From positions 1 through 50,783 of the IMG/VR virus record IMGVR_UViG_3300008107_004055: DNA of 50,783 nucleotides; one strand, given 5' to 3'. Made by a program: the position numbers and the translations under genes. Positions 5,627 through 50,053 of the stretch are shown one piece after another. The first letter of the stretch is position 1. The number at the start of each line of letters is the position of its first letter. The DNA comes from a virus. Under the pieces are notes generated by a model that did no database searches, was not told where the DNA came from, and saw only the letters and a list, made by a program, of their open reading frames with translations.

Positions 5627-5633
5627 GGTGATT

Positions 5634-6803: not shown

Positions 6804-6804
6804 T

Positions 6805-33323: not shown

Positions 33324-34553
33324 ATGAACTTTACACAATTTTTAACCGAATCAAAAGAAGGTAAGAACCTTCACCTAGAACACATTGAAGATGAGGTTCT
33401 GAATCGTGGTGTCTCTGGTGCTCGTGAAGCAATTAATTTCTTGCAATCTCTCCGAGATATGTTGGCAGGCCACTCACAATCACGGGTGAATGTTACAACA
33501 AAATGGGATGGTGCACCTGCTGTATTTTGCGGTATCAACCCTGAGAATGGTAAATTCTTTGTTGGTACTAAAGGCATATTCAATGCAAATCCAAAATTGA
33601 ATTATACTGATGCAGACATTGATGCAAACCATACTTCAGAAGGTTTAAACTCTAAACTCAAAGTTGCATTGCGTTATCTGCCTAAGTTAGGCATTAAAGG
33701 TATTCTGCAAGGCGACATGATGTTTGCAAAAGGTGATATTAACAAACAAGTTATTGATGGTCAATCATACATCACCTTTCAACCAAATACAATTGTTTAT
33801 GCCGTTCCTTCTGATGCTAAGTTGGCTCGTATGATGCTTGATGCTCAAATGGGTATTGTGTTTCATACATCATACACAGGCAAGACGATGGCTGATATGA
33901 AGGCCTCATTCAATATTGATATTGGCCATTTGACTACAACTAAAGATGTTTGGTTCCGTGATGCATCATTCACCGATGCTTCTGGTACTGCCACATTTAC
34001 CGCAGAAGAAACTGCTGCTATTACTGGTATACTCTCACAAGCGGGCAGAACATTTCAAACAATCAACCCATTGAATTTGAATCGTATTTCTAATAGTGAA
34101 ATTATTATGACTTACATTAAGACTTTTAATAACACAAAAGTCCGTGCAGGTCAAGCTATCAGAGACACAAGAGCTCACACATTTGAACTAACACGATGGG
34201 TTGAAGCAAAGCTAAATAAAGATATCATTGATGCAAAGAAAGATGAAACTAAAAAGAAACGTGTCAAAGAGAAAACAGAGATTATGCGTTTCTTCAATAG
34301 TGCAGCCAGAGATTTAAAGGCTATATTTGATTTGATGAACCTGTTGGTTAATGCAAAGAATATGATTGTTAAAAAGTTACAACAAATGAAACAAGTTACT
34401 GGTACATTCTTACGTACAGACGATGGTTTCAAAATTACTAACCCCGAAGGTTTCGTGGCGGTTGATAGACTAAAAGGCAATGCAGTTAAACTGATTGACC
34501 GATTAGAGTTTGCACACGCTAACTTCAATGCAACCAAAAATTGGAGCAATTAA
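33324..34553 (+). CDS. Nucleotidyltransferase/ligase-like protein with capsid-targeting-like N-terminus
   Basis: The 409-residue protein has the covalent nucleotidyltransferase motif I K60-W-D-G63 in TTKWDGAPAVF. It also has GTKGIF (motif III-like), LQGDMMF (Q129-G-D131, motif IV-like) and EGFVAVDRLKGNAVKL near the C-terminus as motif V. This is the order found in RNA/DNA ligases and capping enzymes. Family members in aquatic phages are mostly unnamed (DUF6267-like). The N-terminus MNFTQFLTE^S resembles the T4 capsid-targeting sequence. I start at ATG 33324, one base after the previous stop. A basic helical segment (KKDETKKKRVKEKTE) precedes motif V. Confidence 0.6.
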   Translation: MNFTQFLTESKEGKNLHLEHIEDEVLNRGVSGAREAINFLQSLRDMLAGHSQSRVNVTTKWDGAPAVFCGINPENGKFFVGTKGIFNANPKLNYTDADIDANHTSEGLNSKLKVALRYLPKLGIKGILQGDMMFAKGDINKQVIDGQSYITFQPNTIVYAVPSDAKLARMMLDAQMGIVFHTSYTGKTMADMKASFNIDIGHLTTTKDVWFRDASFTDASGTATFTAEETAAITGILSQAGRTFQTINPLNLNRISNSEIIMTYIKTFNNTKVRAGQAIRDTRAHTFELTRWVEAKLNKDIIDAKKDETKKKRVKEKTEIMRFFNSAARDLKAIFDLMNLLVNAKNMIVKKLQQMKQVTGTFLRTDDGFKITNPEGFVAVDRLKGNAVKLIDRLEFAHANFNATKNWSN

Positions 34554-34834
34554 TGGCTGAACAAAAGTTTAATATCAATGAGATTATGGCTGAGTATGGT
34601 GATAATGATTTTGGTTTTACTGCAATAGATGAAGAAGAATACAATGCCGTTATTGCTGAAAAAGAAGAAACTGTAGATGAATACAAAACTAGACTTAAAG
34701 AAGTTGAAAAGATTATTCTGCCATTCTTAACTAAACTATTGAAGACTGCCGACCAACCAATCATCAAGTGGCCAAATCGGGCACCACAGTTGGAGACACA
34801 AATTCAAAAGATATTGAATTTGACCAGAGGTTAA
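34553..34834 (+). CDS. Small conserved coiled-coil protein
   Basis: The 93-residue protein starts at ATG 34553, sharing a base with the preceding stop. It has FGFTAIDEEEYNAVI, a helical heptad region (EKEETVDEYKTRLKEVEKIILPFL) and KTADQPIIKWPNRAPQLETQIQKIL. The WPNR segment is a conserved tag of small T4-like phage proteins found next to this ligase-like gene. Function is unknown; a short coiled coil suggests oligomerisation. Confidence 0.6.
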   Translation: MAEQKFNINEIMAEYGDNDFGFTAIDEEEYNAVIAEKEETVDEYKTRLKEVEKIILPFLTKLLKTADQPIIKWPNRAPQLETQIQKILNLTRG

Positions 34835-34835
34835 T

Positions 34836-35171
34836 ATGCGATTTAAAGAATACGAAGAATTGTTAGAAGCCGCATATGCCGGCAACATTGGTATTATGGA
34901 ACTAATCAAGTTCAAACAGAAGGCAAACGACAAACAGAAAAAAGAGTTTGATGACCATGTGAAGAACAAACGTCACGAACAGGCTTGGAAAGTCGTCCAA
35001 GATGTGACTGGCGTAAAACTACATAAGAGTGTGCATGAAGAAACAAAGCCTGATATTCTTCCTAAATCAGGTGCAGGTGCATGGGGAACAGATGAATTGG
35101 CAAACACCTATAAAAAGGGAACGCCAGGTCAAAACATTGCCAAATTTAAAGATTACAAACGAACTAAGTAA
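34836..35171 (+). CDS. Small conserved phage protein (YAGNIG-type) with targeting-like N-terminus
   Basis: The 111-residue protein begins MRFKEYEELLE^AAYAGNIGIMELIKF. The first eleven residues resemble a capsid-targeting peptide with an L-L-E cleavage-like site, followed by a common phage helical domain (QKKEFDDHVKNKRHEQAWKVVQDVTGVKL). The C-terminal half is Lys/Gly-rich. It follows the WPNR protein by one base. Function is unknown; packaging in the head is a hypothesis. Confidence 0.5.
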   Translation: MRFKEYEELLEAAYAGNIGIMELIKFKQKANDKQKKEFDDHVKNKRHEQAWKVVQDVTGVKLHKSVHEETKPDILPKSGAGAWGTDELANTYKKGTPGQNIAKFKDYKRTK

Positions 35172-35188
35172 ACCAACTGGAGTATATT

Positions 35189-36022
35189 ATGAAAGACTTG
35201 ATTATAGGTGCAAGTACCAATTACGATTGGAACAAATTAAAATATTGGATTAATTCCATTAACAAATCAGGGTTTGAAGGCGATAAAGTCCTTATTCTGA
35301 TGAACTGTGATGCAGCCACAGTTAAGAAAGTGAACGAAGCAGGTTTCAAGGTCATTGGTTTTAACCAAGACCAACAAGGCAACCTGCAATACGAATCACA
35401 AATGCCGATTCACGTTGAACGATTCGGCCACATCTACGAATATCTCCGTAAAAACGAATATCGCTACGTCATTACTACAGACGTAAAAGATGTAATCTTC
35501 CAACAAAACCCTGTTGACTGGTTAGAAGCAAATCTAACCTCTGAAAATTTGGTCTTCTCATCTGAAAGTATTTTATACAAAGATGAACCATGGGGTGACC
35601 AAAATCTATTAGAAACCTACGGCCCATACGTACACGAAAATTTTAAAAACAATGAGATATTTAATGTTGGCGTTCTTGCTGGTACTGGTAGTGCGATGCG
35701 TGATTTGGCTATCAACATCTTCACAGCAGCAACAAACAGGCCGATACCTATATGCGACCAATCTACGTTCAACTTCATGGTCTCTATGAGTCCATATCGT
35801 GAAACAAGTTTGTACAAACGCTCTGAAGATGGTTGGGCTTGCCAGTTGGGTACAACAGTTGACCCATCTAAGATTCATCAATTCAAACCATTGTTGTTAG
35901 AACCATCACCAACTATTGATGGTGATACAGTAACTACATCAAAGGGTACACCATACTATATCGTACACCAGTATGATAGAGTTCCTGAATGGCGTAAATT
36001 GATTGAGGTGAAATATGGCTAA
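35189..36022 (+). CDS. Putative glycosyltransferase (nucleotide-diphospho-sugar family)
   Basis: The 277-residue protein contains YVITTDVKDVIFQQNP, where D98 and D101 form the DxxD/DxD-like motif at the end of a Rossmann-like strand. SSESILYKDEPWGDQNL follows, as in a group of phage and bacterial nucleotide-diphospho-sugar transferases. FNVGVLAGTGSAM and DQSTFNFMV are further family-like blocks. GGAG precedes the ATG. It opens the second glycan cassette and overlaps the next gene by 8 bases. The acceptor is unknown. Confidence 0.65.
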   Translation: MKDLIIGASTNYDWNKLKYWINSINKSGFEGDKVLILMNCDAATVKKVNEAGFKVIGFNQDQQGNLQYESQMPIHVERFGHIYEYLRKNEYRYVITTDVKDVIFQQNPVDWLEANLTSENLVFSSESILYKDEPWGDQNLLETYGPYVHENFKNNEIFNVGVLAGTGSAMRDLAINIFTAATNRPIPICDQSTFNFMVSMSPYRETSLYKRSEDGWACQLGTTVDPSKIHQFKPLLLEPSPTIDGDTVTTSKGTPYYIVHQYDRVPEWRKLIEVKYG

Positions 36023-36257
36023 TGCCTTAGTAATGTCTGGTCATCTACGGACATTTAAAGACATTGCTGAAGAGGTTAAACATTTTGTTTCGTTGAATGA
36101 ACTTGATGTTTACCTTTATATTTGGGATGAAAACAACCAAGATGATATTGATTATGTTGTAAAGACCTTACAACCAGTTAAATGGTTGGCTGAGAAGAAT
36201 GAACTGTATGCACAAGAATTCTTTGATGCTGAAGACCGAATCTCAAAGAAGAAATGA
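36015..36257 (+). CDS. N-terminal part of a frameshifted glycan-synthesis protein
   Basis: The 80-residue frame begins MANALVMSGHLRTFKDIAEEV, similar in form to the next intact gene (36656), and runs to TGA at 36255-36257. The downstream frame continues the same protein as NELIEKEYDNIVYSRFDTRL. Removing one A from the AAA before the TGA (36252-36254) would join the two into about 212 residues. It could be a disrupted gene, a sequencing or assembly indel in an A-rich run, or a +1 frameshift at AAA-TGA. Confidence 0.6.
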   Translation: MANALVMSGHLRTFKDIAEEVKHFVSLNELDVYLYIWDENNQDDIDYVVKTLQPVKWLAEKNELYAQEFFDAEDRISKKK

Positions 36258-36654
36258 GTTGATTGAAAAAGAATATGACAACATTGTGTACAGTCGTTTT
36301 GATACTAGGTTGACCACATTCAAGGTACGACCATTGGTTGAACAGTACAAAGATGCCGTGATTACACCAACAAATGAACAATATGGTATGGTGTCTGATA
36401 TCTTTGCTATTATTCCATGGCAACACAGAGAAGGCTATTTCTTCTACAATCGTGCAGAAGATATTTTGAATCGTAGGTTTAATAAGAAGACCAAAGAATG
36501 GTTGACTGAGAAGTTTTTCTGGCCAACTGGTCAAAGAGATATTGTTTTACACGATGAGAACAGATATTGTCCTCACCTGTTGTGTATGAGAAACTATTTT
36601 GAATCTAATACACCATACCTTGTGATTGATTTGCCTGTTTATATTAAGAGATAA
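36199..36654 (+). CDS. C-terminal part of the frameshifted glycan-synthesis protein
   Basis: This frame can be read from ATG 36199, but the first part overlaps the upstream frame and looks out of register. The meaningful protein starts near 36250 with NELIEKEYDNIVYSRFDTRLTTF. YSRFDTRL parallels IRSRFDFAL in the next gene, and VSDIFAIIPWQHREGYF parallels its FGNDQFAFSSSRNM region. So this is the C-terminal half of a paralogue of 36656-37360. A start codon with a ribosome site is not evident, which supports a frameshifted single gene. Confidence 0.6.
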   Translation: MNCMHKNSLMLKTESQRRNELIEKEYDNIVYSRFDTRLTTFKVRPLVEQYKDAVITPTNEQYGMVSDIFAIIPWQHREGYFFYNRAEDILNRRFNKKTKEWLTEKFFWPTGQRDIVLHDENRYCPHLLCMRNYFESNTPYLVIDLPVYIKR

Positions 36655-36655
36655 T

Positions 36656-37360
36656 ATGAAAATTGCATTATGTGTATCTGGCCAACCTAGAGGCCTTGCA
36701 ACTGCCTTCCAGTATGTCAAAAAGAATCTGCTTGACAAACACGATGTGACAGTATTTGCTCATCTTTGGCAAGACTCAACTAAAGATTTGGCACCATTGT
36801 GGATGTACGAGCCAAAGAAATTTGAACTTGAACAACCAATGAACCCTGATTTGTCAAAGTACACCAGAGTTCCACCTCCACAACCAAACTGGAAAGTAAA
36901 GAATCCTGCCCTATCAACATATGCACAATTCTACTCTTTGATGAAGGCTAATAATTTAAAGAGAGAACATGAAAATGATTACAAGATGACCTTTGATTGG
37001 GTCATTCGTTCTCGTTTTGATTTTGCATTGAATACTGAAATACCATTTGCAGAGTTGGACAATACCAAGTTGTATATTCCAAACTGCCGAATGACACCAA
37101 ACAGAGATTTTGGAAATGACCAGTTTGCTTTCTCATCGTCACGCAACATGGATAAGTATTGTAATGTGTTTAATCGTATAGATGAATTCTATGACATTGG
37201 TGTTACGATGATTGGTGAAGATATGATGAGTATGAATTGGAAAACCACAGGTTTAACTGGTGAGAACCTTGTGTACTGCAATATGAATCATGCTTTCCCT
37301 CCCGGCCCACACAATGGAACATGGCATTCATTGGTGAGGGAAGACTTTGAAAAGTGGTAA
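36656..37360 (+). CDS. Putative glycan/capsule biosynthesis protein
   Basis: The 234-residue protein starts MKIALCVSGQPRGLATAFQYV at ATG 36656, two bases after the previous stop. It has VTVFAHLW, FDWVIRSRFDFAL and NDQFAFSSSRNMDKY. These blocks occur in small phage and bacterial proteins of glycosyltransferase type encoded near polysaccharide genes. The RxRFD motif may replace DxD. It is a paralogue of the frameshifted gene before it. Function beyond glycan synthesis cannot be specified. Confidence 0.55.
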   Translation: MKIALCVSGQPRGLATAFQYVKKNLLDKHDVTVFAHLWQDSTKDLAPLWMYEPKKFELEQPMNPDLSKYTRVPPPQPNWKVKNPALSTYAQFYSLMKANNLKREHENDYKMTFDWVIRSRFDFALNTEIPFAELDNTKLYIPNCRMTPNRDFGNDQFAFSSSRNMDKYCNVFNRIDEFYDIGVTMIGEDMMSMNWKTTGLTGENLVYCNMNHAFPPGPHNGTWHSLVREDFEKW

Positions 37361-38099
37361 AGTATTAAAAGAGTTAAAGGGTCATTCTAACAGCCATGTT
37401 TACCTAATGCAAGATGGTGATACTGTCTTTGTTAGGAAAACTGGTGACATTGACCGAAACTTGGAAAGATTTGATTCTCTTTCCAAGTTAAACTTGAGCC
37501 TGCCTAAAATCTATGAGATTACAGGCACATATTATGATATGGAATATATCTCTAGTTTAGAGATGAAGAAGTATTTGCCTACAAATAAAGTTGATAAATT
37601 AGTTGACTTTATTAAGAATACCATGTATAATCTATCAAAGAATACCATTGAGAAAGATTATACTGAAACTTACCGCAAGAAACTGGCCTCGTTTGACTTC
37701 AACAAGTTTGATATGCCATTCACATCCGAAGAACTACTAGATAAGTTACCAAAGGTTCTTCCATCTTCAGAGTATCATGGTGATTTCACACTAGAAAACA
37801 TTCTCTATGATACAAACCAAGATGAGTTTGTATTGATTGACCCATTGACTACAGAGTATGATTCGTTTGTATTTGACTTGGCCAAATTAAGACAAGACCT
37901 TGTGTGCAAGTGGTTTATCAGAAATGACAATGTATATTTGGATTCAAAACTGTATGCCATCATAGACAAATTGAATGGTTTTGTCTATAATGAGAATCAT
38001 AACTTACTGATTCTGATGTTGATGAGAGTTTTGCCTTATACACACAATGAAAAAGATAAAGAATTTTTAATGACAGAAGTGAGAAGATTATGGAAATAA
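37347..38099 (+). CDS. APH/choline kinase-like phosphotransferase
   Basis: The 250-residue protein has the aminoglycoside-phosphotransferase/choline-kinase catalytic loop H144-G-D146-F-T-L-E-N151 and the metal-binding I-D165-P in FVLIDPL. An N-terminal beta sheet with VFVRKTG supplies the ATP-binding lysine. The likely start is TTG 37347, six bases after GAGGG, because the next ATG would delete that sheet. It overlaps the preceding gene by 14 bases and the nucleotidyltransferase gene by 10. In glycan clusters such kinases phosphorylate sugars, choline or ethanolamine. Confidence 0.75.
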   Translation: MKSGKVLKELKGHSNSHVYLMQDGDTVFVRKTGDIDRNLERFDSLSKLNLSLPKIYEITGTYYDMEYISSLEMKKYLPTNKVDKLVDFIKNTMYNLSKNTIEKDYTETYRKKLASFDFNKFDMPFTSEELLDKLPKVLPSSEYHGDFTLENILYDTNQDEFVLIDPLTTEYDSFVFDLAKLRQDLVCKWFIRNDNVYLDSKLYAIIDKLNGFVYNENHNLLILMLMRVLPYTHNEKDKEFLMTEVRRLWK

Positions 38100-39115
38100 T
38101 TATGCCTTGTGCGGGTCTATCGACTCGCTTTCCCAATATGCGACCAAAGTACCTGTTGTCAGACTATAACAATAGGTTGATGATTGAGAATGCAGCCAAG
38201 AACTTTATTGGTAAATACAACGTCACGATTGCTATTCTGAAACAACACAATGAGATGTTTAATGCAGAGAATAAATTGCGTGAGGCCTTTGGTGATAAAG
38301 TTAACATTGTTGTGTTAGATGAACCAACAAGTGGTCCTGCCGATACAGTCTATCAGGCCATTATGAAGGCTGAATATTTCTTCACATCAGTCTCACCAAT
38401 GTTAATCAAAGACTGTGATGGTTTCTACGATTCAGATTTGGTTGATGGTAATGCCATCTATGTTTCTAAGTTGTCAAAGAATCCAGACATTCGTAATGCA
38501 CCTGCAAAGAGTTACACCATCACCAATGAACAAGGCATTATTACCTCTGTTGTTGAGAAACAGATTGTCAGTAATTCATTCTGTGTTGGTGGTTATCAGT
38601 TTGCAAGCATTGGTGAGTACGTTGATACGTTTGAGAAACTGAAAGACAATGCCACTTCTGAAATCTTTGTGTCAAACATCATTGATTATATGATTTCAAA
38701 TGGTGCAGTATTCAATGAGAAAGAAGTTGAGAACTTTGTTGATGTTGGTACTGCCGATGATTGGTTTAAATTCAATAACAAGCCAACATACTTCTGTGAC
38801 ATTGATGGTACAATCATTAAGACTAAAGACTTCCATGATGACCCATATGAACCAATTCAAAAGAATGTTGATGCCTTGTTGAAAGAACAAGCCCGTGGTT
38901 GTAAACTGGTGTTTGTAACTGCTCGTAAGAAACGATATGAAGAATACACCAATAAGATTCTGACTGAGATGGGTTTTGTAAACTATGTGTTGGTGATGGA
39001 AGCAAATCATTCACGCCGTGTATTGATTAATGATTATGCCAACTCCAACCCATTCCCTTCTGCTGTTGCGTTGAACTTGAAACGTGATAGTGATAATCTT
39101 GGAGATATGATATGA
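38090..39115 (+). CDS. Sugar-phosphate nucleotidyltransferase fused to HAD phosphatase
   Basis: The 341-residue protein has an N-terminal NTP-transferase domain starting MPCAGLSTRFPNMRPKYLL, with the nucleotide loop and the Lys of PKYLL. LDEPTSGPADTVYQA and KDCDGFY follow as in GlmU/RmlA-like enzymes. From about 230 a HAD domain follows with FCDIDGTIIKT (D237, D239) and VTARKKR. Together it could activate a sugar-1-phosphate and hydrolyse another phosphate. It overlaps the kinase-like gene upstream and the epimerase downstream (ATGA). Such fusions occur in LPS and capsule clusters. Confidence 0.8.
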   Translation: MEIIMPCAGLSTRFPNMRPKYLLSDYNNRLMIENAAKNFIGKYNVTIAILKQHNEMFNAENKLREAFGDKVNIVVLDEPTSGPADTVYQAIMKAEYFFTSVSPMLIKDCDGFYDSDLVDGNAIYVSKLSKNPDIRNAPAKSYTITNEQGIITSVVEKQIVSNSFCVGGYQFASIGEYVDTFEKLKDNATSEIFVSNIIDYMISNGAVFNEKEVENFVDVGTADDWFKFNNKPTYFCDIDGTIIKTKDFHDDPYEPIQKNVDALLKEQARGCKLVFVTARKKRYEEYTNKILTEMGFVNYVLVMEANHSRRVLINDYANSNPFPSAVALNLKRDSDNLGDMI

Positions 39116-40110
39116 ACATTCTGATTACTGGTGGTGCAGGTGGTATTGGTTCAACTCTATGCATTGAATTGGCCAAGAACGGTCATACAGTAGTTGCACT
39201 AGATGATTTCAGTCATGGTTACATGGAGAATCTATTTGATGGTGGTAAACAAGTCTGTGATGCAGTACCACTTGATATCAGAAAGACAAAGAAACTAACA
39301 AAGCTTTTGCTATTTAACAAGACTGATGTTATAGTGCATTTGGCAGCGTTAACATCTTTACCTGAGTGTGAATCTAATCCTGCTGAGTGCTTGAGTGTGA
39401 ATGTTGCAGGTACTGCCTCTGTTCTCAAGGCAGCCAAAGATGCAGGTGTCAAACGAACCATTGTTGCCAGTACATCAGCCATCTATGAAGGTAATACTGA
39501 ATCAGAGGCACCATTTACTGAGGACATACAAGTTAAACCATCATTGTTCTATCCATTGTCAAAGAAACTAATGGAAGATGTGGTGCAATCATATATTGCC
39601 AACTATGACATGGATATTGTGACACTACGATTCTTTAATGTGTTTGGACCAAGGCAAGATGTTCATCGTCCATCACCACCACTTCTAAATTATATCGTAA
39701 AACAAGTTGCTAAGCAAGAACCATGCACGTTCTATTCAAATGGTGAGCAAAAGCGGGATTATGTTCACGTTGATGATGTGGTAAAGTTGATTGAACTTTG
39801 CATTAATAAACCAAAGGCCAAAGGACAAATATACAATGTGTGTACCGGCACATTAACATCGGTGAAAGATGTTATTGGTTCTGCTGTGACCGTATTCGGT
39901 GATTTGAAGTATGAATTTAAACCTTCAAAAGAATATTGGTCTAGTTACAATCTATCTATATCTAAATTGGCAGTTGAAAGAGAAGTCAATAAGTTTTCTT
40001 TAGGTTCTTGTTCAAAGGCCATGTGGGAACTTGGTTGGACACCAAACAAAGGTATTGAATACTTGATGGCAGAAACTATGAAACAAAATTATGAGCTTAT
40101 TACTAGATAA
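39112..40110 (+). CDS. NAD-dependent sugar-nucleotide epimerase
   Basis: The 332-residue extended SDR has G7-x-x-G10-x-x-G13 (ITGGAGGIG), LDDFSHGYMENL, and the catalytic Y147-x-x-x-K151 in FYPLSKK. VVASTSAIYEG precedes it with the catalytic Ser. RFFNVFGPRQD and KRDYVHVDDVV are classic UDP-hexose 4-epimerase family segments. It acts on NDP-sugars, probably the product of the nucleotidyltransferase just upstream. It overlaps the next gene by 20 bases. Confidence 0.92.
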   Translation: MNILITGGAGGIGSTLCIELAKNGHTVVALDDFSHGYMENLFDGGKQVCDAVPLDIRKTKKLTKLLLFNKTDVIVHLAALTSLPECESNPAECLSVNVAGTASVLKAAKDAGVKRTIVASTSAIYEGNTESEAPFTEDIQVKPSLFYPLSKKLMEDVVQSYIANYDMDIVTLRFFNVFGPRQDVHRPSPPLLNYIVKQVAKQEPCTFYSNGEQKRDYVHVDDVVKLIELCINKPKAKGQIYNVCTGTLTSVKDVIGSAVTVFGDLKYEFKPSKEYWSSYNLSISKLAVEREVNKFSLGSCSKAMWELGWTPNKGIEYLMAETMKQNYELITR

Positions 40111-40804
40111 AAACTTATTCATCGTTACCTCTGCATTGGTGCCAAACATTGGTGTGATTCCACCACAAGATAGATTCTATCAAACTATTAGTACATTGAT
40201 ATCGTTGCGTAAAAAATTACCTGATGATTACATCTTCTTCTCTGATGGTTCACCTAATCCTGTGCCTAAAGAATGGGAAGATGAGATTTCAAAGTATGCT
40301 AATGCAATGGCGTTTTGGGCTCAAGACCCTGAGATTAAACAATTAGCAGGTGCAGGCCAAAAGAGTCAGGCTGAGATTGTGTTATTGTTTAAGACACTAC
40401 AGGCCTTGAAAGGCAACCCACAATTACATCCAATCATGCAGGATACAAAACGAATCTTTAAGTTCTCTGCACGAAGTATATTGCATGATAGCTTTGATAT
40501 TAAAGAATATGATAACCTATTTGGCAAGTATGTGTTTAAGACACGAATACCATCTTGGTTGTCACAAGATAAACAGGCACAAACAACTGACAATTTGTTT
40601 ATCACACGCATGTATTCTATGTGTCCATCACTTATAGATGATTATTTGCAAACATTAGTTAAGTGTTATAATACTGTAAACGAACATGGGATTGATACAG
40701 AACACGCCCATTATCAGCACATAGATAAGAAGTATCTGATTGAATTTGACAAACTGCATTGTGAAGGCATTATGGCCGGAACAGGCGCTACTGAGGTATA
40801 TTAA
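40091..40804 (+). CDS. Unrecognised protein of the glycan cassette
   Basis: The 237-residue protein starts with NLFIVTSALVPNIGVIPPQDRFYQTISTL, a typical Rossmann-like first strand and loop. It has YIFFSDGSPNPVP, FKFSARSILHD and ITRMYSMCPSLIDDYL. SARS-x-L and the F..R.PSW block resemble glycosyltransferase-like proteins (a lid with a Tyr/Arg-rich C-terminus), but no family is certain. The neighbours (epimerase before, methyltransferase after) support a glycan role. Confidence 0.45.
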   Translation: MSLLLDKNLFIVTSALVPNIGVIPPQDRFYQTISTLISLRKKLPDDYIFFSDGSPNPVPKEWEDEISKYANAMAFWAQDPEIKQLAGAGQKSQAEIVLLFKTLQALKGNPQLHPIMQDTKRIFKFSARSILHDSFDIKEYDNLFGKYVFKTRIPSWLSQDKQAQTTDNLFITRMYSMCPSLIDDYLQTLVKCYNTVNEHGIDTEHAHYQHIDKKYLIEFDKLHCEGIMAGTGATEVY

Positions 40805-41488: not shown

Positions 41489-41528
41489 ATACTAAATAAG
41501 ACATTAACAACTGCTGCAGAGGCGGGAC

Positions 41529-43928
41529 ATGAAATTTAGAGAATTTATTACTGAGAATAAAGAAAAACATGCGGTCATGGCGTTTGGCCGTATGAACCCA
41601 CCTACAACCGGACATGAAGTTCTGGTTCATAAGGTTAAATCAGTAGCGAACCAAGTTGGTGGTTCTCATCACATTGTCCTGTCCCACTCACAAGATGCCG
41701 CTAAGAACCCTCTTACATCGGCACAAAAAGTCAAGCACGCTAAGAGATTCTTTCCTGATACGAACATCTCTGTAGCAACCAAAGAAGAACCAAACTTCTT
41801 AACACAAGCAGCCAAACTACACAAACAAGGTGTTACTCACCTTCACATGGTTGCTGGTTCTGACCGTGTTGCCGAATACCATAAATTGTTACACAAATAC
41901 AATGGTACACACGAAGGCGCACTATTCAATTTCAAAAAGATTACACTTCACAATGCAGGTGCTCGTGACCCTGATGCTGAAGGTACATCTGGTATGTCCG
42001 CTTCAAAAATGAGGTCACATGCTAACACAAACAGTTTTGATGACTTTAAACAAGGCATTCCAAAACATGTACCTGAACACCATGCAAAAGAATTGTTCCG
42101 TGATGTTCGTAAAGGTATGAACATTAAAGAATCTGTAGACCTCAACGAAGAATTCGAAATGCTTTCTGAAGGTGTACACGACCAAGGCATCTTCAAGGCT
42201 GTGTTCTTAGCAGGCGGTCCAGGTTCTGGCAAAGACTATGTGATGAATAACACATTAGATGGCCAAGGTTTAACTGAAATCAATTCTGATAAGGCACTTG
42301 AGTTCTTAATGGACAAAGAAGGCCTTGACAAGATGATGCCTGCTGACGAAACAGAGAAACGAAACCTTGTCCGTGGTCGTGCAAAGAACATTACAGAATT
42401 ACGTCAACAACTTGCATTGTTAGGTCGCAATGGCCTGATTATCAATGGCACAGGTGATGATGTAACTAAAACCAAAAACATCAAAGACCAATTAGAAAAG
42501 TTGGGTTATGAAACATCTATGTTACTGGTTAACACAAGAGATGATATTTCAGCACAACGCAACCTAGAACGTGGTCAACGTGGTGGTCGTGCAGTACCAG
42601 AACCAATTCGTAAAGAGAAATGGGACAATGTACAGTATGCTCGTACTGAGTATGCACAAATGTTTGGTGCAAACTATTCTGAATTTGATAACTCTGAAGA
42701 CTTGCGTGAAGCCGATCCAGAAACAGTTAAGGCTAAGAAGGCTGAGTTACTGAGTTTGTTTAACAAGTTCAAAGAGTTTGTTGCGGCACCACCAAAGTCA
42801 CAAGAGGCACAATTCTGGACTGCCAATGAATTGGATAAGAAAGATTCTCTACCAGTTCCTAAAGATGGTGCAGAACAATTACCTGCATCTAATGATGAAA
42901 CTGCTAGTGAAGCAAGTAAACTAGGTTTACAATACTATGGTTTCGGTCGTTATGGTAAGAATGGTAAAGTAACACACCGTTCTGTGCATGGCCAGTTGGT
43001 AATGGTTAATAAAGAAGAACCAAAACAACCAAAGATTCCAGTTAATAGTTCATCACAAAAACCTGCTAAGAAGGTTGTTAATGAATCTGTTACAGTTTCC
43101 ATTACTGGTGACACAGCAGAAGAAGTTAATCAGATGTTTGCTATGATGCATGGCGGAACAACATCAGAAAATAAACAAACAGAACAATATCAATTCACAG
43201 ACAATACGGAAGTATTGACTCTTGGTACAAGATATGAATCTATTGGTGATAGACCAGATAGTATGACGTTCACCAATGATGATGTTCTTATAGAAAAAAA
43301 TGAAGTGTTGAAAGACAAAAATGGTAAAGTGCGTGTCTTTATGCTTAGAAATTCAGCAGCAAAAGAAGCACACACTAAAAATGGAACTATTGTAAAATAC
43401 AATAATGGTTATATTGTTAAACTTAATGGAGAAAATAAAAATGCTAGATTATCTGAAAAAACTATTCACACCAAAACAACCGGCACCAGTGGAAGCCTCA
43501 TTACCGAAAGTAGAGGAAGCACCATTGGTTCAGTTGGAACAAGTGGCACCGCAAGAACCATTGCAGAGCACAGAGCCAGTGGTAACTACACCAGAACCAG
43601 CTCCAGTGCAACAGACAGCACCGGTACCGGCACAGAAACCTGCGCCGAAGAAACAACCCGTAGCAAACTCACGCTCTCAGAAATCCGTACCCGCCAAAAA
43701 GAAAAAGTAATAGAGTCTATTAATAATGGCGAATCTGGTCTATCAATGGCTGCATCTGGTGAAAACCTTGGTCGTGATGGTTTGACAAGAACCAAAACAC
43801 TAAAGAAACCACTAGAAGAATTAACTGGTGATGAAACTGGTGCATCAATTGGTGACCAAAAAGAAGGTGAACTGAAAAGAGTTGGCATTAATCTTAAAAC
43901 ATTTAAATCAAAGAAGTTTGTAGGATGA
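41529..43928 (+). CDS. Nucleotidylyltransferase-kinase fusion with capsid-targeting-like N-terminus
   Basis: The 799-residue protein begins MKFREFITE^NKEKHA, like a T4 capsid-targeting peptide. A nucleotidylyltransferase domain (about 12-200) carries AFGRMNPPTTGHE, the (H/T)xGH motif, and GMSASKMR, the ISxxxxR-type motif. A P-loop kinase domain follows with FLAGGPGSGKDYV. This is the NadR-like order (adenylyltransferase plus kinase), though NMN specificity is unproven. A Ser/Thr/Gly-rich stretch (about 640-725) overlaps a nested gene in another frame. The C-terminus (ELTGDETGASIGDQKEGELK) is common in these phage fusion proteins. Degenerate TAAATA repeats (41487-41500) precede it. Confidence 0.75.
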   Translation: MKFREFITENKEKHAVMAFGRMNPPTTGHEVLVHKVKSVANQVGGSHHIVLSHSQDAAKNPLTSAQKVKHAKRFFPDTNISVATKEEPNFLTQAAKLHKQGVTHLHMVAGSDRVAEYHKLLHKYNGTHEGALFNFKKITLHNAGARDPDAEGTSGMSASKMRSHANTNSFDDFKQGIPKHVPEHHAKELFRDVRKGMNIKESVDLNEEFEMLSEGVHDQGIFKAVFLAGGPGSGKDYVMNNTLDGQGLTEINSDKALEFLMDKEGLDKMMPADETEKRNLVRGRAKNITELRQQLALLGRNGLIINGTGDDVTKTKNIKDQLEKLGYETSMLLVNTRDDISAQRNLERGQRGGRAVPEPIRKEKWDNVQYARTEYAQMFGANYSEFDNSEDLREADPETVKAKKAELLSLFNKFKEFVAAPPKSQEAQFWTANELDKKDSLPVPKDGAEQLPASNDETASEASKLGLQYYGFGRYGKNGKVTHRSVHGQLVMVNKEEPKQPKIPVNSSSQKPAKKVVNESVTVSITGDTAEEVNQMFAMMHGGTTSENKQTEQYQFTDNTEVLTLGTRYESIGDRPDSMTFTNDDVLIEKNEVLKDKNGKVRVFMLRNSAAKEAHTKNGTIVKYNNGYIVKLNGENKNARLSEKTIHTKTTGTSGSLITESRGSTIGSVGTSGTARTIAEHRASGNYTRTSSSATDSTGTGTETCAEETTRSKLTLSEIRTRQKEKVIESINNGESGLSMAASGENLGRDGLTRTKTLKKPLEELTGDETGASIGDQKEGELKRVGINLKTFKSKKFVG
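43441..43710 (+). CDS. Nested out-of-frame Pro/Ala-rich protein
   Basis: This 89-codon reading frame lies inside the 799-residue gene in a different frame. It starts MLDYLKKLFTPKQPAPV, continues as a Pro/Ala/Val/Gln-rich chain (TPEPAPVQQTAPVPAQ) and ends in KKKK. GGAG at 43428-43431 is nine bases before its ATG, a good ribosome site. The composition looks like a real linker or tail-like protein, while the main frame here is a low-complexity Ser/Thr/Gly stretch. It could be an overprinted gene or an insertion kept in frame by the larger gene. Confidence 0.45.
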   Translation: MLDYLKKLFTPKQPAPVEASLPKVEEAPLVQLEQVAPQEPLQSTEPVVTTPEPAPVQQTAPVPAQKPAPKKQPVANSRSQKSVPAKKKK

Positions 43929-44218
43929 AATCATTTAAAGCATTCATAACAGAAACGCCTGCTTGGACACGCAAAGAAGGCAAGAACCCTGAGGGTGGTT
44001 TAAACCGCAAGGGTATTGCTTCTTATCGTGCTGCAAATCCAGGTTCTAAACTATCGATGGCGGTTACAACTCCACCATCAAAGTTGAAACCTGGTTCTAA
44101 AGCGGCTAATCGTAGAAAATCATTCTGTGCTCGTATGGGTGGCATGGAAGGTCCAATGAAGAAACCCAATGGTGAACCAACACGCAAAGCATTAGCGTTG
44201 AGGAAGTGGAACTGTTAA
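43925..44218 (+). CDS. DUF6321-like protein with capsid-targeting-like N-terminus
   Basis: The 97-residue protein starts MKSFKAFITE^TPAW, the closest match in the window to the T4 internal-protein targeting peptide. The rest, RKEGKNPEGGLNRKGIASY, then RRKSFCARMGGMEGP and KPNGEPTRKALALRKWNC, is a compact basic domain found in many phages (DUF6321-like) with a conserved Cys at the end. It overlaps the preceding gene by ATGA. Nucleic-acid binding in the head is a reasonable inference because it is strongly basic. Confidence 0.6.
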   Translation: MKSFKAFITETPAWTRKEGKNPEGGLNRKGIASYRAANPGSKLSMAVTTPPSKLKPGSKAANRRKSFCARMGGMEGPMKKPNGEPTRKALALRKWNC

Positions 44219-45076
44219 ATGGCACAGTATAGAGTAGAAACTGGTTCTTACGACCCAAAAATATCCAATCATTTTGAAGTAATGATGTTGGCTAATAATG
44301 CGGCCGGAGATATCGTTACACAAAGTAATCCATTACCAGTTTCATTGATTAACACCAATACTACTCTAAATGCACCTTGGGAACTTCAAGTTGGCCGAGG
44401 AAAAGTTGCTACTGTAACTTCAATTAACATTCAAGGTTACAATGTTGCTATGCCATCAAGTTGGTGTACCGCATGGGAACTTGCTAATAGTGCTGGGGAT
44501 TATGTATATCCTTCTTCTTCAGTTGCAATGACATTTACAAGTGAATCAGCAGAATCATTGACAATGACAGTTTCTGGTTTAGATTCTTCTTACACACCAA
44601 AGATTTCTACTGTAACATTTACAAACAGTAATACTGGAGTTGTAACGAGTGGAACGAATTCATTTTTCCGTATTAATAGAATGCAGATTACATCAAATAC
44701 TTCTGTTGGTGCTATATCTGCAACAAATAATGGAACAACATATTCATATATAGCTCCTGGAACAGGTATTAGTCAAGCTAGTATATACACAGTTCCAGCT
44801 GGTCACACATTTTATTTACTCCGTGTAGTTGCATACACCACAAATAATGGTAATCAACATTGCACATACAGAATTTCTACACAAACAATTTCTGGTGGAA
44901 TAACAACGCCACAAATTGTTTTAACGGCACCGTTTCAACAAGTATATTCAACATTAAGAGTTGTACCAAGAGCTTATTCTGCTAACACAGACATTAAATG
45001 GCAGTTGTATCAAACATCACCTGCACCAGGTTCGGTACAACTTGAAGGTATATTAATTCCCAATTCTGCACCATAA
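44219..45076 (+). CDS. Probable virion structural protein (beta-rich)
   Basis: The 285-residue protein is Ser/Thr/Asn-rich with repeated beta strands (ATVTSINIQGYNVAMPSSW, ITSNTSVGAISATNNGTTYSY, TFYLLRVVAYTTNNGNQHC). It ends SVQLEGILIPN, a tail seen in T4-like aquatic phage structural proteins. No enzymatic motif is visible. It starts directly at the previous stop codon and precedes other late-type genes. A decoration, fibre or neck protein is the guess. Confidence 0.55.
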   Translation: MAQYRVETGSYDPKISNHFEVMMLANNAAGDIVTQSNPLPVSLINTNTTLNAPWELQVGRGKVATVTSINIQGYNVAMPSSWCTAWELANSAGDYVYPSSSVAMTFTSESAESLTMTVSGLDSSYTPKISTVTFTNSNTGVVTSGTNSFFRINRMQITSNTSVGAISATNNGTTYSYIAPGTGISQASIYTVPAGHTFYLLRVVAYTTNNGNQHCTYRISTQTISGGITTPQIVLTAPFQQVYSTLRVVPRAYSANTDIKWQLYQTSPAPGSVQLEGILIPNSAP

Positions 45077-45099
45077 CAAATAACTAAAAGGAGAACACC

Positions 45100-46287
45100 A
45101 TGTTCGGAGATAACAAACAAATTAGAGATGTAGCTGAAGTAGCTAGAAAAATTATGATGGGTGAGAAACTTCATCCAAACCAACAAAAGTTGGATGTACA
45201 TGAGCCAGAGAAAGACAAATTGACGGCTGATGACTTCAAAAAACTTCGTGCAGGCAAAAAACCTGATGTAAAGAAAGAAGAAGTTGAGATTGAAGAAGAA
45301 AGCCATCAGTCAAAGACTACAATGAAGCACATTCCAAATCCATCACCTGCACAAAAACAAGCAGCTAAAGATATTAAACCTGGCGTTGGCGGTTATCGTG
45401 ACCGTATTGATATGCTTAAAAGTGCCGGTGTTAAAGAAGAAGTTGAAGAAATTGATGAAGCTACGATGACACACATCACTCTTGGTGCGAAAGTTAAAGA
45501 TAAAGAAGGTGGTTATAATCAAGATGTACACCATAAAGGTAAAAAGATTGGTCACATTGAAGCATATAAACACCGCACTGGGATGAGATATGGTTCACAC
45601 CATGATGCTTCTGGTGACTCAACAGCTGGCAACAGAGATGCGGAAGAATCTATTGCTGATATAAGATTTGCTCATGCCGACCACTTGAAGTCTATGAAGA
45701 AAGAGCAAGTTGAACAGATGGATGAAGTTAAGATGGCTGATTTGCCATCAACTAAAGTTCAAGGCCGTTCATATGGTTCATCTAAGCCACAACCAAGTGC
45801 CTTTGATGTGCTAAAAGGACCAAAAGAAAAAGAATTGAAATCTATTGAATCTGAGAAGAAGAAAAAGAAAATGTCTGAAATGGTTGCCCTCTATAAAGAT
45901 GGTGGCATGAAGGCATTCTTTGAATCTATTAAGAAAGAAGATTTGATTTCAGAAGAACCTGATTCAGAACAATTCGCAAAAGAATTGGAAGACCAAAAGA
46001 AACGTGCCGCTGGTACTAAACCACAAGCTGATGTTGCAAAGGCTGCTGTTTTATCAGTTAAGCAAGAAGCAACTGAACAAGACATTCAAGTTATCAATGC
46101 AGATGCAGCCAATGGTGTTGACCAAGTTAACATTGAAGAACGCACATTGACTGCTGCTGAGACAGACAAGAAAGAAGAAATTGTTAAATCTATGAAAAAA
46201 GGTTTAGCAGGTTTTAAAGAGCGTTATGGTAAAGATGCTAAGTCTGTAATGTATGCAGCTGCCACAAAGCAGGCCAAAAAAGACTAA
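45100..46287 (+). CDS. Lys/Glu-rich phage protein with repeated acidic cleavage-like motifs
   Basis: The 395-residue protein is rich in Lys, Glu and Ala. Spaced along it are EEVEIEEE (I64-E67), EEVEEIDEA (I118-D-E120) and EQVEQMDEV (M207-D-E209). These fit the (I/L/M)-x-E pattern of T4-type prohead protease sites. The C-terminus (LAGFKERYGKDAKSVMYAAATKQAKKD) is a common ending of T4-like aquatic phage proteins. A ribosome site AAGGAGAA precedes the ATG. Scaffold or internal-head protein is the inference. Confidence 0.55.
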   Translation: MFGDNKQIRDVAEVARKIMMGEKLHPNQQKLDVHEPEKDKLTADDFKKLRAGKKPDVKKEEVEIEEESHQSKTTMKHIPNPSPAQKQAAKDIKPGVGGYRDRIDMLKSAGVKEEVEEIDEATMTHITLGAKVKDKEGGYNQDVHHKGKKIGHIEAYKHRTGMRYGSHHDASGDSTAGNRDAEESIADIRFAHADHLKSMKKEQVEQMDEVKMADLPSTKVQGRSYGSSKPQPSAFDVLKGPKEKELKSIESEKKKKKMSEMVALYKDGGMKAFFESIKKEDLISEEPDSEQFAKELEDQKKRAAGTKPQADVAKAAVLSVKQEATEQDIQVINADAANGVDQVNIEERTLTAAETDKKEEIVKSMKKGLAGFKERYGKDAKSVMYAAATKQAKKD

Positions 46288-46288
46288 A

Positions 46289-48652
46289 ATGGAAAACTTC
46301 AAAAGTTTTTCTGAAGCAATACAACCTGGTTCTGTTCCTGAACCAGGTCGTGAAGCTGTTGGTGGTAGATTTAAATCTGCAGCACCAAAGAAACCAACAA
46401 AACCTGCACCATTTGTAACTAGTGAAGACACAAAGGTTGATGTGCAAAGTTTTTCTGATTTCTTAGAGGGTAGATGTTGGCCTGGTTATAAACCAAAACC
46501 AGGTAAGACACCTTACTCACCTGGTTCTTGCGTGAAAGAATCTCCTGATGCAGAACTTAAAGAAGATTTGCGTAAATGGTTTAGTAAAACTGATCCAAAA
46601 GGTGGTTGGAAAAGAATCAATAGTAAAGGTGAGGCCATTGGTCCTTGTGCAAGAGAGCCTGGTGAACCTAAACCTAAATGTATGTCTAACGAAAAGAGAG
46701 CTGCTCTAAGTAAGAAAGAAAGAGCATCTGCCGTTGCAGCTAAAAGAAAACATGACCCTAATCCTGAGAGAAAGGGTGCACCAATAAATGTGTCTAACTT
46801 TGGAAAAGGAAAGATAAGCGAAGATATGGAAAACTTAGAAGAAAAAAATGTACCAACTAGTCCTGAAAAGTGGGCACAGGCCAAAGCACAAGCAAAGGCT
46901 AAATTTGATGTGTACCCTTCGGCATACGCCAATGGTTGGGCATCTAAAAAATATAAAGAGATGGGTGGCGGATGGAAATCTGTTGCAGAAGAAACAGAGA
47001 ACCTTGAAGAAGGTCGCCCATCACAACGCCATCCATTGGAAGGCCATGAGTATCACAAAAAGTCTGATGAGGCTTTAATCCACATTGCTAAAGATGCTCA
47101 TGCAGCCGCAGAAGCAATGAAGTCACACAATACTACTGCTGAGAACAAGTATCGTGACCAGGCCAATGACTCTGCAACAGTAAGACATTTCCGCAAAACA
47201 AGTGGAATGCCTGACTGGTATAAAAAGAAGTATGGTCATATGAAAGAAGATGCTAAACAAGATGATAAGTCTTCAACTGCTTTAAGTGGACTTGTTGCTA
47301 AAAAGAATTTGAAACAAGCCGAAGGCAAAAATAAGTCGCAAGAGTTTATCAATAAAATGACAAGTAAAGTGAATGCAGCTAAACGTCTTAAAGAAGAAGA
47401 TGCATACGATAAAGATGCTAAACCTTCTGACAAACCACATGATAAAGAGGCGGCTGCAAAGCGTGCTAAGATTGCCGCAGTAATGGCAAGAAGGAAAATG
47501 GCTAAAGAAGAAGTTGAACAATTAGATGAGTTGTCACCTAGTACTTTACAAAGTTATAAAGTTGCTGGTCACAAGAAATATGATAGTATTAGAAACAATA
47601 CTGATGCCGATTCGATGACTAAGAAATCCAAATTGGAAAAAGGTATTAAAACTGCTCACGCAAAACAATATCCATCCAAACCTGCAGCAGCTGCACCAAA
47701 GAAAGACCCTAATAGTCGTGGCTATGAACAAGGTCGTTACATGGGTGACAGCGTTGAACAAGATAATGAAAATAGAATTGATGAATTGTCCAATGATATG
47801 TTGGGTCGTTACAAGACTGCCGCTGGTGCCGATGCATCTAAGGCTGACAAAGCTGGTGACTATAACAAAGGCAACAAACGATTTAGTGGTATTATGAGAG
47901 CAACTAAGAAACAAATGGCTAATGACATTGTTACACGAGCATCTGCTGTTACAGAAGCTGCAGTTGTTACAGATAAAGATAAGATTGTTTCTGTACATGA
48001 CAAAAAAGGCAGTAGCCTCCGTGTGTTAGCAAGTAACCTTGGTCATTACAGAGATGCAGGTTACAAAGCCGTTAGAGAAGCAAAAGAGAAAACTGAGTAT
48101 GATTACGAAGGTGACATGGCCCGTGGTCAATTACAAAGTGTAATCAATAATGCTCAAAGAGTACATGACATGTTAGAAGATAATGATAATCTTCCTGAGT
48201 GGGTACAATCAAAGATTACCCTTGCAGAAGATTATATCTCAACAGTTGCCAACTATATGATGAGTGAGATTGATGAATCCATTGCTGATGACAAGTATGG
48301 TTCTGCAGCCTCTGAAACATTAGTCACTAAACCTTACAAAGAACCGGCTAAGAAGATGAAAGAATCTAAAGATGAATCACCACCTTTTGATGGTCCATAC
48401 GTTAAGCGCACAGGTACAGTAACAGACAAATCTGGTGCTAAACACACAGATATGTCCAGAGTTAGAGACTTGGCTCGTACAGCAATGAAGAAACAAGCCA
48501 GTTCTTACAAAGCACCTAAGAAACTAGGTGAAGAAGCTTCTCGCAAGGCAGAGATTGTCAAAACTGCTGCCAAGAAGAAAAAACCTGATAGTAAAGAAGA
48601 TACATTCCAGGCAGAACCTGAGTTGTCATCTACTATCACTAAAAATTATTAA
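46289..48652 (+). CDS. Large Lys/Ala/Glu-rich mosaic protein with repeated DELS motifs
   Basis: The 787-residue protein begins MENFKSFSEAIQPGS. It contains a small conserved phage domain (about 90-170) with DPKGGWKRIN, a separate block KWAQAKAQAKAKFDVYPSAYANGW (about 200), and repeats of the form (L/I)DELSxxxLxxYKxA at L412-D-E414 and I497-D-E499, plus I661-D-E663. The modules are those of DUF5872-like phage proteins. (L/I)-D-E fits prohead protease sites. It starts one base after the previous stop. It may be a head-internal or scaffold protein processed into peptides. Confidence 0.5.
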   Translation: MENFKSFSEAIQPGSVPEPGREAVGGRFKSAAPKKPTKPAPFVTSEDTKVDVQSFSDFLEGRCWPGYKPKPGKTPYSPGSCVKESPDAELKEDLRKWFSKTDPKGGWKRINSKGEAIGPCAREPGEPKPKCMSNEKRAALSKKERASAVAAKRKHDPNPERKGAPINVSNFGKGKISEDMENLEEKNVPTSPEKWAQAKAQAKAKFDVYPSAYANGWASKKYKEMGGGWKSVAEETENLEEGRPSQRHPLEGHEYHKKSDEALIHIAKDAHAAAEAMKSHNTTAENKYRDQANDSATVRHFRKTSGMPDWYKKKYGHMKEDAKQDDKSSTALSGLVAKKNLKQAEGKNKSQEFINKMTSKVNAAKRLKEEDAYDKDAKPSDKPHDKEAAAKRAKIAAVMARRKMAKEEVEQLDELSPSTLQSYKVAGHKKYDSIRNNTDADSMTKKSKLEKGIKTAHAKQYPSKPAAAAPKKDPNSRGYEQGRYMGDSVEQDNENRIDELSNDMLGRYKTAAGADASKADKAGDYNKGNKRFSGIMRATKKQMANDIVTRASAVTEAAVVTDKDKIVSVHDKKGSSLRVLASNLGHYRDAGYKAVREAKEKTEYDYEGDMARGQLQSVINNAQRVHDMLEDNDNLPEWVQSKITLAEDYISTVANYMMSEIDESIADDKYGSAASETLVTKPYKEPAKKMKESKDESPPFDGPYVKRTGTVTDKSGAKHTDMSRVRDLARTAMKKQASSYKAPKKLGEEASRKAEIVKTAAKKKKPDSKEDTFQAEPELSSTITKNY

Positions 48653-48664
48653 GTGGTTGACAGG

Positions 48665-48672
48665 CATAAATA
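48665..48672 (+). promoter_or_regulatory. Late-type promoter CATAAATA
   Basis: CATAAATA (48665-48672) matches NATAAATA. It lies 31 bases before ATG 48704, with AGGAG (48692-48696) between as ribosome site. It should drive the small virion-type genes that follow. Confidence 0.6.
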
Positions 48673-48703
48673 AACAATCAAACCAGATAACTAGGAGAAA
48701 TAT

Positions 48704-49057
48704 ATGTCTTTATGGGGAAATTTAGATGCTGCTAACAATGCACCAAAGTTCGCAGGAACTGGTGGTATTGGCTTGACAGCTAACACACAACAATTATTTT
48801 CAAACACAACTTTTGCTACAACAAGTTCTACATTAGGTGTAGCAGGTCAAGCAATTGGTGTTTTTGGACTTAGTGCTTTAGAAGCATCCAATACAGGCGC
48901 TGGAAAAGCTAATACAGCTAGCGCACATGCTGGTTGGGTGATGCGTAAAGAAGGCACTGGCGGCCGTGCTGGTCGTATTCAAACAGAAACATTGGTTGCT
49001 ATGGGTTCCATGACTGGTGACCACGCAGCTGCGAATACGACTTACCCAGGCGTCTAA
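48704..49057 (+). CDS. Small Gly/Ala/Thr-rich putative virion protein
   Basis: The 117-residue protein starts MSLWGNLDAANNAPKF and is Gly/Ala/Ser/Thr-rich, with AGWVMRKEGTGGRAGRIQTETLVAMGSM near the end. MxLWGN openings are common in T4-like aquatic virion proteins. It has a late promoter and a strong ribosome site. It overlaps the next gene by one base. A structural role is inferred from composition and expression context. Confidence 0.5.
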   Translation: MSLWGNLDAANNAPKFAGTGGIGLTANTQQLFSNTTFATTSSTLGVAGQAIGVFGLSALEASNTGAGKANTASAHAGWVMRKEGTGGRAGRIQTETLVAMGSMTGDHAAANTTYPGV

Positions 49058-49434
49058 TGCGATTCTCTGAATATATCCGTGAGATGGGTGTTGGTGCGGT
49101 GGCAACACCGATGGCCACGCCTTCTCTCATGGATACTAATTTAGATAGTCTTAACACACGTTTAGATTATGATACTGATGAGAAATTTATGTCTCCTGAA
49201 TCTGGTATACAAAGGATTCGTAGAGTGTTGCACCTATATGGGTATGACTTAGCACCACTCTACGATGCCGATCCAGAAGGAGAAGAAATAGTTATTGATT
49301 TGGATAATAATGTAGGCGTATACATTTTATATACTCTCACCGATGATAATCGTTATGAATTTTATGCTGAAGTAGGCAATGAAAGTCGTATGCAAGAACT
49401 TTTATCGGACGAGGGCACAGAAGAAGAAGAATAA
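49057..49434 (+). CDS. Conserved phage protein with capsid-targeting-like N-terminus
   Basis: The 125-residue acidic protein starts MRFSEYIRE^MGVGAV, a weaker match to the targeting peptide. It has FMSPESGIQRIRRVLHLYGYDLAPLYDADPEGEE and YILYTLTDDNRYEFYAEVGNES. This pattern resembles a conserved T4-like phage family with a helical then beta region. It ends with a run of Glu. Function is unknown; the neighbours suggest a virion context. Confidence 0.5.
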   Translation: MRFSEYIREMGVGAVATPMATPSLMDTNLDSLNTRLDYDTDEKFMSPESGIQRIRRVLHLYGYDLAPLYDADPEGEEIVIDLDNNVGVYILYTLTDDNRYEFYAEVGNESRMQELLSDEGTEEEE

Positions 49435-49858: not shown

Positions 49859-50053
49859 ATGACCAACGAATTAAATACTGATAAAAAATGTAAACCAATG
49901 CAAAAAGAAGATGCACCAATCAACGCAGTTGGTGGTGGTCAAATTGCAGGTCTTGGTATTGGCCAAGACGGCGAGCCAGGTATTAAAAAGAAAAAGAAAG
50001 GTGTATCATCCTTTACATCATTCATAAAGAGAAAATCAAATGTGGCTTCTTAA
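49859..50053 (+). CDS. Small phage protein with GGGQIAGLGIG motif
   Basis: The 64-residue protein has APINAVGGGQIAGLGIGQDGEPG followed by a Lys run (KKKKKG) and a basic tail. The same VxxGxIAGxGxGxxGEPG ending is a common short protein or C-terminus in T4-like aquatic phages, probably late. GGAG precedes the ATG by a few bases. It overlaps the spanin gene by 14 bases. Function is unknown. Confidence 0.5.
   Translation: MTNELNTDKKCKPMQKEDAPINAVGGGQIAGLGIGQDGEPGIKKKKKGVSSFTSFIKRKSNVAS

Follow-up and report, generated by a model that had tools for sequence, protein, structure and literature searches.

Leader-like peptides of the T4 internal-protein type at the N-termini of unrelated proteins of an uncultured virus

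Phage T4 carries in its head the internal proteins IPI-IPIII, which are small anti-restriction proteins (PMC12373910). The part of PMC9026906 that deals with T4 IPIII describes the first ten residues as sufficient for packaging, with residues 4 and 7 acting in targeting and residues 8 and 10 in processing, and reports that the gp21 protease cuts after L/I-x-E. A second group of virion-associated proteins comes from cyanophages: a S-adenosylmethionine (SAM) hydrolase, an APH-like kinase, a cytidylyltransferase and a Cas9-annotated nuclease were detected by mass spectrometry (MS) in S-CREM2 particles (PMC10665884), and the available portions of the S-CREM2, S-SZBM1 and S-SCSM1 papers give no packaging signal. 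Here we describe a window of DNA that is the entire record of an uncultured virus (IMG/VR IMGVR_UViG_3300008107_004055; 50,783 bases, 62 predicted coding sequences), which bears T4-type replication genes and a DNA polymerase matching best to marine T4-like phages. Several of its proteins begin with short peptides that are very probably capsid-targeting sequences of the T4 internal-protein type, placed on enzymes. A first-pass annotation had proposed this from the sequence, invoking gp21 cleavage of T4 leaders after (L/I)-x-E, which agrees with the IPIII work.

Leader-like N-termini in the window and its relatives

The first-pass annotation had listed six N-termini as fitting one pattern, and all six were found where it placed them, each on an ATG-initiated open reading frame (ORF) of the plus strand. 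Four of them match the strict leader pattern used here (^M.{1,3}[FY]..[FY][IL].E), namely MNFTQFLTE (33324), MKFREFITE (41529), MKSFKAFITE (43925) and MRFSEYIRE (49057), whereas the N-terminus at 34836 is a stretched form with two extra residues ahead of L-L-E. In relatives, MKFTEFDELME and MFKSKVDE precede the same AAY, so that an L/V-x-E site is kept. The sixth, MENFKSFSEA (46289), had been offered as a possible targeting peptide; we rejected it because it has F-S-E instead of L/I-x-E and because the N-termini of its homologues differ, although the protein itself has a virion-detected homologue. The features concerned are as follows, a slash marking the proposed cleavage position.

33324..33350, plus strand: leader-like peptide MNFTQFLTE/ of the DUF6267 protein
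33324..34553, plus strand: DUF6267 (PF19782; Pfam E 2.7e-113) protein with a KWDG motif, ligase-like by motif only
34836..34868, plus strand: stretched leader MRFKEYEELLE/AAY of a 111-aa protein (gene 34836-35171)
41529..41555, plus strand: leader-like peptide MKFREFITE/, strict or near-strict in most of 80 loci
41529..43928, plus strand: cytidylyltransferase/NMNAT-like domain, Zeta/AAA_33-like P-loop kinase domain and variable C-terminal region (Pfam/PHROG; Foldseek)
42153..42170, plus strand: internal site FEMLSE/G at the start of the kinase domain
42903..43013, plus strand: recurrent domain of ~37 aa (GLxxxGxGxYxxxGKVxHR...GxL), from a seed alignment and hmmsearch
43925..43954, plus strand: leader-like peptide MKSFKAFITE/TPAW, identical in relative contigs G002 and G003
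43925..44218, plus strand: DUF6321 (PF19846; Pfam E 1.7e-22) small basic protein, matching virion-detected S-CREM2 gp137
49057..49083, plus strand: leader-like peptide MRFSEYIRE/ of a 125-aa protein (gene 49057-49434); relatives have MRFSEYIRE, MRFKQFVEE and MKKFADYLTE

The profile search that the first-pass annotation had suggested as a check gave four strict matches among the 62 coding sequences, far above the mean of 0.013 obtained with shuffled N-termini; at least four matches were reached in none of 20,000 shuffling trials, and we therefore rejected chance similarity as the origin of these N-termini. None of the 438 internal Met positions of window proteins matched. The T4 layout (aromatic residues at 4 and 7, L/I-x-E at 8-10) is found in the same four peptides, with a spacing one residue shorter in three of them, and MKSFKAFITE has F4, F7, I8 and E10. 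The conserved positions are thus those assigned to targeting and processing in T4 IPIII, where Asp at position 10 blocks processing. The bodies behind the peptides are unrelated (DUF6267, cytidylyltransferase/NMNAT-like plus kinase, DUF6321 and others), and recognised domains start directly after the leader; Pfam and PHROG searches assigned no family to the proteins at 34836 and 49057.

The peptide was kept in 79/79 DUF6267 loci examined; these loci are closely related, and the query that retrieved them contained the peptide itself, so that this count is not independent evidence. A strict leader was found in 57 of 80 cytidylyltransferase loci. Homologues of DUF6267 lacking the peptide occur in T4-like cyanophages (S-SZBM1_141, S-CREM2 gp87, S-8S53 and P-HM1), and because DUF6267 can start there right at the domain, the peptide behaves as an added module. 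In relatives, leaders also precede a SAM hydrolase, an APH-type kinase, a Cas9-annotated nuclease and a standalone kinase, and the leader of this lineage appears to be a transferable tag on unrelated proteins. A gp21-type protease is encoded by the nearest relatives carrying the same peptides, contigs whose DUF6267 is 85% identical, and the gp21 (S77) prohead protease was found in all named relatives tested, T4 and six other named phages included. As judged from sequence, the maturation sites of gp21 and gp23 in relative G002 would be VKYLSE/A and MLYE/TAPTN, and those of relative G007 VKYLTE/K and ILQE/T; the L/I-x-E rule of the leaders would therefore hold at these sites as well.

Similar peptides were seen elsewhere. 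In the cultured methylophage Melnitz (MZ577097) an ATP-grasp protein begins with MTQKFSQFITE and another protein with MQGFKTFLSE (82-1131 and 12203-13288). Peptide-bearing proteins of Melnitz include DUF6267 and kinase proteins. The leader search run on T4 recovered the internal proteins and gp61.1 (NC_000866, 18966-19130; annotated as hypothetical), which begins with MKTFKEFIKE and appears to be a further internal protein.

Virion proteomes of cyanophages

Every annotated gene of S-CREM2 (OR473000) was translated and the N-termini were compared with Table 3 of PMC10665884. All four non-structural, non-lysis proteins of the S-CREM2 virion carry a leader: MKDFDSFLEE in the SAM hydrolase, MKRFDAFLTE in the kinase, MKNFSSFLTE in the cytidylyltransferase and RFASFMAE in the Cas9-annotated protein; gp13, with MKDLHSFLTE, was virion-detected as well. 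The strict pattern was present in 3/52 detected vs 0/167 undetected proteins (p=0.013), and a relaxed pattern in 7/52 vs 4/167 (p=0.0045). The virion-detected proteins also include the S-SZBM1 cytidylyltransferase (PMC9146016), which starts with MRFRQFIIE, and the S-SCSM1 NMNAT (PMC9602691), which starts with MKSFLQFLKE. Three virion-detected homologues of the window protein 41529 thus bear a leader, and since relatives with the same tag were detected in the particle proteomes of three cyanophages, the enzymes are probably carried in the head. The peptide-less DUF6267 homologues were not among the virion-detected proteins of S-CREM2 or S-SZBM1.

Virion-detected S-CREM2 homologues exist for the window proteins 41529, 43925, 44219 and 46289. 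Accordingly, the first-pass proposal that enzymes and small proteins are packaged is well supported for the cytidylyltransferase-kinase (41529), whose homologues are both virion-detected and leader-bearing, and the DUF6321 protein has a virion-detected homologue; for the proposed ligase/nucleotidyltransferase, the DUF6267 protein at 33324, the evidence is the conserved peptide, which suggests packaging.

Two further observations concern tagged virion proteins. The Cas9-annotated, virion-detected S-CREM2 gp12 (OR473000, 7704-10313) has its leader core RFASFMAE/A within the first 25 residues, and a delivered nuclease would be striking. Several unrelated tagged proteins share the ~37-aa domain (GLxxxGHGxWYDxxTGxxVARTxxGxL), namely that of the window (42903-43013), S-CREM2 gp12 and gp14, L594:4220-5449 and the S-SCSM1 NMNAT; gp12, gp14 and the NMNAT are all virion-detected and were in the seed of the hmmsearch profile. 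Within S-CREM2 the domain is confined to gp12 and gp14, occurring twice in gp14.

L/I-x-E sites at domain junctions and other features of the window

A site of the same kind lies inside the cytidylyltransferase-kinase. Among all loci fetched, [LIVM]xE stands immediately ahead of the kinase domain in 44/44 distinct contexts, and with a wider search pattern the count was 48 of 56. Fused kinases have this boundary behind the cytidylyltransferase, and standalone kinases have it behind a short N-terminal leader (MKVNSFIQHLSE/G, MKTFAELQE/G, MIPFILKE/G); the kinase homologues of Cronobacter S13 and Aeromonas CC2 start with MNFKEFCQLDE and MKMKFSEFVQLEE, respectively. For DUF6321, the site was present ahead of the domain in 6/7 gp21-positive contigs vs 2/15 contigs of 50 kb or more in which gp21 gave no hit (p=0.002), the latter serving as a rough contrast only, as a missing gp21 on fragmentary contigs was not counted as absence. 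DUF5824 and DUF5872-like modules showed the same sharp peak of sites at their boundary. L/I-x-E thus lies exactly at module boundaries in fusions, and a leader is present in the standalone versions. Kinase homologues in gp21-free phages were sought as a control, and no clean case was found among 26 phage records, which comprised Kyanoviridae of Pelagibacter and Methylophilales, phages of Aeromonas and Cronobacter (Straboviridae in the cases read) and the jumbo phage Atu_ph07; the three homologues read from this set had leader-like N-termini or an xTE/G junction.

When residues 1-430 of 41529 were modelled, confidence was low at 1-8, 148-153 and 202-212; disorder is thus predicted for the leader as well as the junction linker, and the two candidate cleavage sites, E9 and E214, lie in or beside such segments. 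The top Foldseek match was NadR, an NMNAT plus kinase with the same domain order, and the kinase domain alone resembled a bacterial polynucleotide kinase. In DUF6267 the invariant residues are K60-x-D62-G63 (KxDG), E375-G376-x-V378 (EGxV) and K389 (K-L), which at the motif level make it a probable covalent nucleotidyltransferase, or ligase-like protein; a ligase-type fold could not be confirmed, as the model was of poor quality (predicted local distance difference test score 55.6), and DUF6267 had no sequence match to solved structures. A plausible guess is that the cargo supports nicotinamide adenine dinucleotide metabolism or nucleic-acid repair in the first minutes of infection.

Further proteins and sites lie downstream of the DUF6321 gene.

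44219..45076, plus strand: homologue of virion-detected S-CREM2 gp176 (phmmer E 9e-12; published MS table)
45100..46287, plus strand: basic low-complexity protein with sites EEIDE/A and EQMDE/V, a possible multi-site substrate
46289..48652, plus strand: modular basic protein, homologue of virion-detected S-CREM2 gp160
46835..46843, plus strand: site NLEE/KNVPT ahead of a DUF5872-like module
47522..47530, plus strand: site QLDE/LSPSTLQSY between modules
47777..47785, plus strand: site RIDE/LSNDMLGRY between modules

Elsewhere in the window, a small protein at 49859-50053 contains E-DAPINAVGGGQIAGLGIGQDGEPGIKKKKK, which resembles the mature gp23 N-terminus (E/APTNSTG), together with a basic tail, and like stretches occur in DLP6, the Atu_ph07 C-terminus and G010. 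Two overlapping ORFs at 36015-36654 match a single intact ORF of relative G002 (46090-46782), which suggests a frameshift or a sequencing error. Genes of host-like metabolism and of sugar-nucleotide pathways, recognised by eye from their translations, form two blocks (2018-8129 and 35189-41488), with dehydrogenase E1-like, GHMP kinase, aminotransferase, epimerase, glycosyltransferase-like and methyltransferase-like products; the second block sits between the DUF6267 and cytidylyltransferase genes.

Interpretation and comparison with known systems

We infer that the leader-bearing proteins of this phage are packaged, cleaved and delivered, on the basis of what others have shown: the specificity of gp21 and the role of the peptide in T4, and the presence of peptide-bearing homologues in virions. 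As the head assembles, the aromatic residues of the leader would dock each protein into the prohead core, and the gp21 protease would then cut the leader after L/I-x-E; the freed enzyme would remain in the head alongside the DNA and be released into the cell at infection. In fused cargo, gp21 would also cut at the L/I-x-E domain junctions and so separate the modules.

The direct observations are the peptides, the pattern in which they are conserved or lost, the gp21 of relatives and the motif at the junctions. Several points weigh against capsid targeting. The gp21-type protease, another check named in the first-pass annotation, was found in relatives as described above, and none was found on the 50.8-kb window fragment itself. 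The peptide is missing from some homologues of DUF6267 and of the cytidylyltransferase (S-8S53, P-HM1). Detection of the virion cytidylyltransferases rests on few peptides (3 and 2), and co-purification is allowed for by the authors of the S-CREM2 and S-SCSM1 studies (PMC10665884, PMC9602691). Two small S-SZBM1 proteins near 122.6-123.1 kb with strict peptides are not in the detected list. The virion data are published tables for homologues, which report the coverage of each protein. Finally, LxE at the junctions could partly belong to the domain itself.

One could envisage that the tagged proteins form the structural core or scaffold of the head and are not delivered effectors. We regard this as possible, though clearly the less likely role: several tagged proteins are small, basic and modular like T4 gp67/gp68, and the cluster includes homologues of virion proteins, whereas assembly would have no need of the catalytic domains present in the cytidylyltransferase, kinase and SAM hydrolase homologues. 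The basic proteins of the cluster may well be core. It is much more doubtful that the N-terminal and junction L/I-x-E are ordinary parts of the fold with no role in targeting or cleavage; LxE-G is fully conserved beside the kinase domain, as a structural element would be, yet the same peptide is found on unrelated families, DUF6267 and cytidylyltransferase homologues without it start at the domain, and the leader and junction segments are disordered in the model. Least probable is that virion detection reflects co-purified abundant cytosolic enzymes and that the peptides mean something else. The low cytidylyltransferase peptide counts and the caution voiced by the authors speak for it; against it, leaders are borne by each of the four S-CREM2 virion proteins that are neither structural nor involved in lysis, three of them with 19-28 unique peptides, and peptide-less DUF6267 was undetected. 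The shared leader therefore argues for true packaging over co-purification.

Within the capsid-targeting interpretation, part of the fused cargo is probably synthesised as polyproteins that gp21 then cuts into separate modules. We lean slightly towards the broader proposal that aquatic T4-superfamily phages build cargo polyproteins, in which several folded enzymes or basic modules, joined by L/I-x-E linkers, enter the prohead behind a single N-terminal leader and are split apart by gp21 once packaged; with a motif in common, modules could shuffle between standalone tagged genes and fusions. This proposal rests on the position of the motif, and LxE beside the kinase might instead be an intrinsic structural element. 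The junction sites make the proposal directly testable in existing virion mass spectra.

The packaging signal itself is of a known kind. Its use on large enzymes, the agreement with proteomes and the junction sites appear not to be described in the literature searched, where 'capsid targeting sequence' and 'cyanophage' co-occurred only in a review of T4 head assembly. The signal would provide a sequence rule for telling which phage proteins accompany the DNA into the host; T4-like phages are widespread in oceans and lakes, and few of their delivered proteins are known. It also offers a mechanism for the puzzling metabolic enzymes in cyanophage particles.

In phiKZ and SPN3US head cargo is likewise cut by a gp21 relative, behind a short x-x-E motif that takes the form S/A-x-E in phiKZ, and a T4-type aromatic leader is undescribed for phiKZ substrates in the available part of PMC9026906. 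Polyvalent proteins (PMC5512222) are also multi-domain injected cargo and were compared to polyproteins by Iyer et al. 2017, but contain embedded peptidase domains, whereas the sites described here fit a separate head protease, gp21. T4 IPI-IPIII (MKTYQEFIAE) are alike in the motif position by position, in its N-terminal place, in unrelated bodies that share the leader only and in the gp21-type protease of relatives; they differ in that the tagged proteins here include large enzymes, that the leader is in some cases shorter by one residue, and that L/I-x-E is present at internal domain junctions too. The virion enzymes of S-CREM2, S-SZBM1 and S-SCSM1 belong to the same cytidylyltransferase/NMNAT family, were detected by MS and carry the same leader, and the window protein 41529 differs from them in adding a kinase domain behind a junction site.

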